This document shows, piece by piece, positions 23,862 to 28,310 of a stretch of DNA of 64,000 bases. The notes below the pieces were generated by a model that saw only the letters and a list, made by a program, of their open reading frames with translations, was not told the DNA's origin and made no database searches. The stretch is from assembly GCF_024345415.1 (NCBI RefSeq), contig NZ_JAGQBB010000007.1:1-64000 (forward strand), in the 5' to 3' direction. Made by a program: the position numbers and the translations under genes. Numbering within the stretch: the stretch's first letter is position 1; every line of letters starts with the position of its first letter. This stretch comes from Synechococcus sp. Tobar12-5m-g. GTDB lineage: Bacteria > Cyanobacteriota > Cyanobacteriia > PCC-6307 > Cyanobiaceae.

Positions 23862-25169
23862 TCAATCGGCCCACACCACCGGCAGGTCGGCCGGCCGGGT
23901 GGTGGCGGAGCGCGAGAGCCGCTCCCGCTTCATCGCCCAGGCGGGCCGCAGGCCGCAGGCGGCCCACTGCACGGTGCCGCGGCCGTAGCGGCGGTTGAGG
24001 CCGTCGATCGTGGCCATCAACGCCTCGCGCCGCTGCTGCTGCTCCGGCGGCAGCGGCACCAGCAGGTGGTGCTGCAGCTGCTCCACCGGCTGCAGGTTCT
24101 GCAGCAGCACGCCGGCCTTCTGCAGCGGTTTGTGGGGCTTGAACAGGCGTTCGGCCAGGGGCAGGGCGGCGGCGAGCAGCACGGCCGTGTCGTTGCTGGC
24201 CAGCGGCAGGGTGGTGGTGGCGGCATTGGCGTAGAGGCTCGTGCCGTTGAAGGGGCTGCTGCGCACGAACACGGTGACCGTGCCGGTGCGCTGGCGCTGG
24301 CGGCGCAGCTTCTCGGCGGCGCGGCTGAGGTAGGTGGCGATCGCCTCGCGCAGGGCCGCCAGGCTGGTGACCGGCTCACTGAAGCTGCGGCTCACGCAGG
24401 TTTCCTGTTTGGCCGGCACCACGCTCTGCAGCAACAGGCAGCTGTGGCCGCGCAGGTCCTGCTGCAGGCGCAGGCCCACCACGCCGCAGCGGGCCCGCAG
24501 CTCGCCGCTGGGCAGATCGCGCAGCTGGCGGGCCGTGGCCACGCCGCGCAGGCGGCACCAGCGCGAGAGCTTGCGGCCGATGCCCCAGACCTCTTCCACC
24601 GGCACCTGCTCCAGCCAGGGGTCGGGATCGGGAACGGCCCCCAGATCGAACACGCCCTGCTGGATCGGGTTCTGCTTGGCCAGCCGGTTGGCCACCTTGG
24701 CCAGGGTCTTGCTGCCGGCGATGCCCACCGCCACCGGCAGGCCCAGGTGGCGCCGCACCTGGCGGCGGAGCGCCAGGCCCCAGGCGCTGAGGTCACCGCC
24801 ACGGGAGCCCTTGCCGGGCCCAGCGCCAGCAGGGCGGTGCAGCCGGCCGAAGGCCTCGTCGATCGAATAGACCTCCAGCTCCTCCACCCAGGGCTCCAGG
24901 GTGGCCATCAGCCGCTGGCTCATGTCGGCGTAGAGGGCGTAGTTGGAGCTGCGCACCACCACCCCCTGGCGCTCCAGCTGGCGACGCACCTGGAAGTAGG
25001 GCACCCCCATGGCGATGCCGAGGGCGCGGGCCTCGGCGCTGCGGGCCACGATGCAGCCGTCGTTGTTGGAGAGCACCACCAGCGGCCGGCCGATCAAGGC
25101 GGGATCCAGGGCCGCCTCGCAGGAGGCGTAGAAGTTGTTGCCGTCGATCAGCACGGTGGCGAACGCCAT
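23862..25169 (-). CDS. umuC: DNA polymerase V catalytic subunit
   Basis: A 435-residue Y-family translesion polymerase used in SOS mutagenesis. Catalytic acids are in VLIDGNNFYASCEAAL and YSIDEAFG; the fold continues with VGIAGSKTLAKVANRLAK, the HhH region VEEVWGIGRKLSRW and a UmuC-type C-terminal domain. It follows umuD by 35 nt in an operon preceded by a LexA box at 25616-25629. It ends 2 nt from the convergent Rieske gene. Confidence 0.95.
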   Translation of the reverse strand: MAFATVLIDGNNFYASCEAALDPALIGRPLVVLSNNDGCIVARSAEARALGIAMGVPYFQVRRQLERQGVVVRSSNYALYADMSQRLMATLEPWVEELEVYSIDEAFGRLHRPAGAGPGKGSRGGDLSAWGLALRRQVRRHLGLPVAVGIAGSKTLAKVANRLAKQNPIQQGVFDLGAVPDPDPWLEQVPVEEVWGIGRKLSRWCRLRGVATARQLRDLPSGELRARCGVVGLRLQQDLRGHSCLLLQSVVPAKQETCVSRSFSEPVTSLAALREAIATYLSRAAEKLRRQRQRTGTVTVFVRSSPFNGTSLYANAATTTLPLASNDTAVLLAAALPLAERLFKPHKPLQKAGVLLQNLQPVEQLQHHLLVPLPPEQQQRREALMATIDGLNRRYGRGTVQWAACGLRPAWAMKRERLSRSATTRPADLPVVWAD

Positions 25170-25204
25170 CGGTTGTGCAGGGCGGAGGGTTCAGCGCGGC
25201 TGGA

Positions 25205-25588
25205 TCAGAGCGGGTGGATCACCTGGATGGCCACGCCCCAGAGGCGGGTGTCGTCGGCATCGCTGAGCTCCAGGGGCGGATAGGCCGGGTTGGCCGCCTC
25301 CAGCCGCAGGCGGCCCTGGTGCCGCACCAGACGCTTGAGCGTGAAGGCCCCCTCAACCGCCGCCACCACGATGCGGCCGGGGCGCGGCTCCAGGCTGCGA
25401 TCCACGATCAGCAGGTCGCCGTGGTGGATGCCGGCGCCGATCATCGAATCGCCGCTGACGCGCAGGAAGAAGGTGCTGCTGGGGCGGGCGATCAGGTGCT
25501 CGTTGAGGTCGATGCCCGCCTCCACGTAGTCATCGGCGGGGGAGGGGAAGCCGGCCGCCACCGATTCGGTGACCAAAGGAAGGCGCAC
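25205..25588 (-). CDS. umuD: SOS mutagenesis protein UmuD
   Basis: A 127-residue self-cleaving accessory subunit of polymerase V. The N-terminal arm has the cleavage site Ala12-Gly13 (VAAGFPSPADD), and the peptidase dyad is Ser48 (SGDSM) with Lys85 (FTLKRL), 37 residues apart as in E. coli UmuD. RecA-stimulated cleavage would yield UmuD', which joins UmuC. The start is GTG at 25586-25588, 28 nt downstream of the LexA box. Confidence 0.95.
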   Translation of the reverse strand: MRLPLVTESVAAGFPSPADDYVEAGIDLNEHLIARPSSTFFLRVSGDSMIGAGIHHGDLLIVDRSLEPRPGRIVVAAVEGAFTLKRLVRHQGRLRLEAANPAYPPLELSDADDTRLWGVAIQVIHPL

Positions 25589-27910: not shown

Positions 27911-28015
27911 CGCCAACACAAGGGTGCTCAAAGAAGCGATGTCCAGCCCCGGTGTTTGTACTCATCTCTGCTGATCGTTGGCCGCTCTAGGCTGTGATCA
28001 GAGAGAAGAAACACC

Positions 28016-28228
28016 ATGAACGTACACACCAAAACCTCCAATGCGCTCCAATCCATGCGCGCTCTGGCCCACAGAGATCCTGGTTTTGCGGAGGCCCTAT
28101 CCCATTCGCAATCACCACAACAAGCTGCCCAGTTGGCGGCGGAGCGGGGCATCACCATCAGCTCCAGGACGCTCTGGCTGAACCGGGGCCGCCTGCTGGG
28201 TGGGGGCCTGCCCAGCTGGCGAGGCTGA
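28016..28228 (+). CDS. Nif11-type leader peptide, putative RiPP precursor
   Basis: A 70-residue peptide. Residues about 11-53 (LQSMRALAHRDPGFAEALSH, then SPQQAAQLAAERGITIS) follow the Nif11 leader pattern of two helices with a conserved A-x-x-x-G-(I/F) turn. The end, GRLLGGGLPSWRG, carries a double-glycine motif at residues 62-64 where a C39-type protease could cut, leaving a very short tail LPSWRG without Cys. Nif11 leaders guide modification of prochlorosin-type and other RiPPs in picocyanobacteria. No modifying enzyme or exporter of this kind is beside it. The surrounding bases 27911-28130 are clearly lower in G+C than neighbours. AGAGAAG precedes the ATG. Confidence 0.7.
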   Translation: MNVHTKTSNALQSMRALAHRDPGFAEALSHSQSPQQAAQLAAERGITISSRTLWLNRGRLLGGGLPSWRG

Positions 28229-28310
28229 CCATGGGCTGCCCCCCGGGCAGGATCTGGGCGTGGCGAGCTTGAATCGGGTCGATCACCGCTGAAGCCAAAG
28301 CGCCTTGCCC

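Follow-up and report, generated by a model that had tools for sequence, protein, structure and literature searches.

A constant C-terminal tail marks a lineage-restricted family of Nif11-like small proteins in picocyanobacteria

Precursors of the TIGR03798 (N11P) type and the prochlorosins are among the described proteins closest to the family reported here, with which they share small size, a domain resembling a leader, a GG in most cases, and scattered orphan genes. RiPP cores vary, and RiPP precursors show a conservation pattern opposite to that of a family with a constant tail. Nif11 genes of picocyanobacteria tend to be labelled automatically as RiPP precursors. Nif11 peptides have been described as precursors of RiPPs that carry the motif ELSDEELEAVAGG (PMC2887384), and Nif11 genes of Prochlorococcus MIT9313 that respond to nitrogen stress are cited in PMC2784084. 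A marine Synechococcus group of Nif11 proteins with the layout MALDQL...GEYH/N (group F of PMC10783134) resembles our family in joining a Nif11 domain to a constant C-terminal end and differs from it in N terminus and tail (LPGEYN versus GGLPTWRG). Small cyanobacterial proteins with a GG also include the EbfG double-glycine proteins of Synechococcus elongatus, which depend on the C39 transporter PteB and lose only a minor part of the protein on cleavage (PMC4997328).

The initial annotation of the window, a stretch of 64,000 nucleotides from a Synechococcus genome (G000), had described an orphan gene between rsmA and ispE in a lower-G+C pocket, whose 70-residue product carries GGG at residues 62-64 and ends without Cys. 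All of this was borne out. The product, MNVHTKTSNALQSMRALAHRDPGFAEALSHSQSPQQAAQLAAERGITISSRTLWLNRGRLLGGGLPSWRG, is encoded by an open reading frame that includes the stop codon (Table 1), and only the six residues LPSWRG follow the GGG. The flanking genes match TIGR00755 (rsmA, 7e-72) and TIGR00154 (ispE, 3e-64). G+C content averages 0.688 across the window but 0.620 over positions 27911-28310, which places this region at the 1.6th percentile among 400-base windows; the dip is concentrated in the promoter and the 5′ half of the gene (27911-28140; 0.557, 0.1th percentile). Elsewhere in the window, an adjacent pair of open reading frames on the minus strand (23862-25588) resembles, by eye, a UmuC-type polymerase and a UmuD-like protein.

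Table 1. Features of the 70-amino acid gene and its upstream region, in window coordinates.
Feature	Position	Strand	Evidence
Conserved box GGTGTTTGTACTCATC (GTG-N8-CAT), candidate site for a dimeric regulator, 21 nt ahead of the -10-like hexamer	27951..27966	+	Alignment of relatives
TAGGCT, candidate -10 hexamer (TANNNT type)	27988..27993	+	Relatives
GAGAGAAGA, candidate ribosome-binding site	28001..28009	+	Sequence reading; GAGAAGGAGG-like stretches likewise placed in relatives
CDS, 70-aa Nif11-like protein with constant tail	28016..28228	+	Homologues, profile matches, purifying selection between closely related members
Nif11-like helical region, residues 15-54	28058..28177	+	PF07862 match at residues 20-49; hhalign over residues 15-63; AlphaFold helices
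Family-defining C-terminal block LWLNRGRLLGGGLPSWRG, residues 53-70, consensus LWRxRGTLxxGGLPTWRG up to the stop codon	28172..28225	+	Pairwise identities

A first search for relatives picked up 12 further genomes with a homologue of 42-62% identity, and relatives in genome contigs were recovered with a family profile rather than with the window protein as sole query. With this profile, about 67 of the 400 genomes searched from the same taxonomic family gave a member (counted by hand, taking genomes whose match scored at least 50 bits), and among 386 genomes searched across the phylum no member was found outside that taxonomic family. Cyanobium, Synechococcus and related isolates or MAGs make up most of the named carriers, with Cyanobium usitatum and Synechococcus sp. 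CS-1331 as culturable examples. The window protein is thus a member of a conserved small-protein family of picocyanobacteria that is restricted to one taxonomic family, and since relatives were found by search we consider the gene real despite the weak Nif11 match of the single protein. One contig titled as a Bifidobacterium breve MAG (CALPNT020000151.1) encodes a member with 76% identity; the title is probably wrong. In the portions of the literature that were searched, no name for a family with a PTWRG tail was found.

Taken alone, the window protein falls below the cut-offs of both Nif11 models: it matches PF07862 with 15.4 bits (E = 0.023, gathering cut-off 23.8 bits) and TIGR03798 with 12.8 bits (E = 0.11, cut-off 32.3 bits). 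At the level of the family, PF07862 is matched by 28 of 38 members at E<=0.1 (best 6e-6) and TIGR03798 by 25 of the 38 (best 5e-7), and hhalign aligns the family with five other Nif11 proteins of the same genome over residues 15-63 (E = 6.8e-7, probability 92%). Because of these family-level matches and the profile-profile comparison, we accept the Nif11 relationship as real. The Nif11 label of the initial annotation, for which it had suggested a profile search, is therefore upheld by the relatives as that of a Nif11-type small protein; its further step, to a RiPP leader, is not. The likeness to Nif11 domain proteins lies in the helical region, whereas the N-terminal tail and the LWRxRG...PTWRG tail of the family lie outside the domain model. 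Among the other Nif11 proteins of G000 are a MALDQL...LPGEYN protein (L001, G000:C6:40087-40230) and one that reads as a Nif11-cupin (L002).

Members are about 66-108 amino acids long. A variable tail at the N terminus leads into a helical domain of the Nif11 type, and a constant tail closes the C terminus. Intact relatives share one ending, LWRxRGTLxxGGLPTWRG followed by the stop codon. Mean pairwise identity among 28 non-redundant members is 0.81 in the last eight residues, 0.65 in LWRHRGTLxS (the first ten consensus columns of the block), 0.46 in the helical region and 0.21 in the N tail. Conservation starts ahead of the GG, where the LW and RG of LWRxRG are invariant or nearly so. Immediately before the last six residues, 42 of 52 members have GG and the rest have DG, HG, NG or GR, with AG in one further member (L135), and the last 18 residues are without Cys in 51 of the 52. 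Where TIGR03798 proteins and prochlorosins have a leader ending of the type ELSDEELxxxGG and a variable core rich in Cys, Ser or Thr, the window protein reads LWxxRGxLL before the GG, with no ELSDEEL-like leader end, and six constant residues after it in place of a variable core with modifiable residues. As the segment after the GG is the most conserved part of the protein, the reading of what precedes it as a RiPP leader is unsupported; judged by its conservation, the tail is neither degenerate nor a RiPP core.

We surveyed three modifying or exporting enzymes. In the G000 genome, which is an estimated 99.97% complete, searches with PF05147, PF03412 and PF02624 found no LanC-domain protein, no C39 peptidase and no YcaO, respectively. 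By hand counts, LanC is present in four and YcaO in five of 54 carrier genomes, 21 of which have no C39 match, and each of LanC and YcaO is present in one of 26 non-carrier genomes. Family presence tracks none of the three enzymes. The initial annotation had proposed a possible degenerate or unusually short prochlorosin-type precursor from a set scattered far from one lanthionine synthetase, to be checked by searching the genome for LanM/ProcM-like synthetases, C39 exporters and other Nif11 leaders. The sub-threshold PF07862 and TIGR03798 matches and the GG fit this proposal. The search returned no such synthetase or exporter in G000, and of the other Nif11 proteins checked there none combines a GG with a Cys-rich core behind it; TIGR03798 systems and prochlorosins differ from G000 in this respect, as it has no LanM, YcaO or C39. 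The end of the protein is conserved rather than decayed and, in nearly all members, free of Cys. With no LanC, no precursors with a Cys-rich core and a conserved tail, the proposal is contradicted, and we consider it highly implausible.

It is improbable, though less strikingly so, that the protein is a RiPP precursor whose unrecognised maturase, perhaps a radical SAM enzyme that modifies Trp or Arg in the tail, is encoded elsewhere in the genome. Nif11 domains are established RiPP leaders (PMC2887384), and the constant C-terminal stretch of the MALDQL...GEYH/N peptides (PMC10783134) would offer a parallel; against this, family genes have no conserved neighbour of any kind and most carriers are without LanC and YcaO.

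At a C39 cleavage site one would expect GG or GA to be retained. A non-C39 protease might instead cut after the GG and free a constant, unmodified hexapeptide of the LPTWRG type as a pheromone, in keeping with the GG that precedes a short, almost invariant end in most members and with the GG-motif small proteins that S. elongatus secretes and that act in biofilm formation (PMC4997328). We regard such a signal peptide as unlikely. GG-secreted peptides such as EbfG and the class II bacteriocins go with a C39 exporter, and no C39 match was found in G000 or in 20 further carriers; some members have DG, HG, NG or AG in place of GG; and the strong conservation that begins at LWRxRG, before the GG, is not obviously needed in a discarded leader. 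The secretion motifs of the EbfG type are N-terminal and leave a product of 6-7 kDa (PMC4997328). Unlike EbfG, the window protein has its GG at the C terminus.

Our preferred reading, which we hold to be probable on balance, is that of a lineage-restricted small binding or regulatory protein with a Nif11 fold outside RiPP biosynthesis, which works unprocessed as an adaptor or inhibitor. A constant tail in genomes with no detected LanC, C39 or YcaO suggests that at least part of the Nif11 set probably has another role. The protein would stay in the cell, its helical domain would present an exposed tail, and the tail would dock on a single conserved partner, either a protein or a nucleic acid, while a regulator bound at the upstream box would switch the supply. 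AlphaFold (24 sequences) predicted helices at residues 3-20, 22-30, 34-43, 50-55 and 57-60 and then a coil tail; we infer that the tail is conserved yet outside the predicted folded core, as expected for a docking end. This reading is favoured by the shared tail end, the gradient of identity (81% versus 46% versus 21%), a first G of the GG that is not fixed, conservation from before the GG, the lack of LanC, C39 and YcaO in G000, the lack of a common neighbour, selection among close pairs and the upstream box. Counting against it, confidence in the AlphaFold model is moderate (pLDDT averages 77, and about 60 in the tail) and the model gave no PDB fold match at E below 0.001, many Nif11 proteins are RiPP leaders, and GG precedes the tail in most members.

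In most close pairs pN is well below pS (ratios mostly 0.1-0.35, with a few higher values on very few changes), and close relatives of the 70-aa gene thus appear usually to be under purifying selection. Several genomes hold two copies and one holds three within about 12 kb. This last stretch (L068, G139:C1:2197000-2216500), in which the three copies lie near a MALDQL...GEYN Nif11 remnant and a P-type ATPase gene, has few long open reading frames and looks like a flexible island. Some copies have decayed through in-frame stops in several genomes (e.g., L107, on G193:C66), which indicates that some lineages can do without the gene and that it is lost as well as gained; this is a further point against the preferred reading. 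Searches of phage, plasmid and viral contigs gave no matches, and nothing thus marks the gene as one of phages or plasmids.

Of the 11 other genera of the taxonomic family with an ispE match, 10 have rsmA and ispE side by side (20-78 nt between protein matches), and the gene lies between them in G000, G001 and G002. In G003, the genome whose ispE is nearest to that of G000 (84%), the rsmA-ispE gap is only 122 nt and the gene copy lies on another contig. Insertion sites are scattered, with different loci in different genera, and across genera no common neighbour gene was found at family loci. The neighbours MoaA/MoaB, HoxE and ferredoxin were considered as functional hints and rejected, as each is confined to an individual clade.

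In most relatives TAGGCT, or a variant that differs by one base, lies about 28-36 nt upstream of the start codon. Of 30 non-redundant family upstream regions, 11 carry the box (also written GGTGTTTNTACTCAYC) with agreement at no fewer than 12 of 15 positions, and its place is almost always -64 to -69 relative to the start codon; the box consensus was read from the same sequences as were counted, so shuffle p-values are descriptive, which weighs against the preferred reading. In one large clade the position holds another sequence. A consensus scan revealed no E. coli-type sigma-70 promoter and no intrinsic terminator. The gene is preceded by its own promoter region, in which the conserved box is often present. 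A regulon for the box was sought in 11 genomes, and outside family promoters no gene is preceded by this layout: near matches elsewhere in G000 and 10 other genomes fall almost all within long open reading frames, and the possibly intergenic ones (L114, L115 and L149) have no gene start with this promoter layout downstream.

A box found before no other gene in the 11 genomes searched is what an autoregulator predicts, and the tail is basic and aromatic, a distant echo of the H-NS motif TWxGxGRxPxW. The product could accordingly be a small DNA-binding protein that contacts DNA through its RG...PTWRG tail, with the box as its own operator. We think this quite unlikely: the resemblance to H-NS is by eye and the spacing differs, no PDB fold was matched, and the box is divergent or missing in several clades, which could mean another regulator.

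Under the preferred reading of an unprocessed adaptor or inhibitor, the promoter would travel with the gene. More tentatively, the locus may be a lineage-specific regulatory or signalling cassette, a mobile unit with its own promoter and a box seen before no other gene, in which the ...GGLPTWRG end would be a dedicated docking or signal sequence on a Nif11 fold used outside RiPP biosynthesis; we see this as possible but doubtful. To trace its function, the family offers a motif short enough to test and a candidate regulatory box. In one clade (copies such as L018, L030 and L033), a strong GC-rich hairpin, GGAGCGATC...GATCGCTCC, lies just 3′ of the stop codon at different loci, and its retention there suggests that promoter, gene and hairpin may move together.
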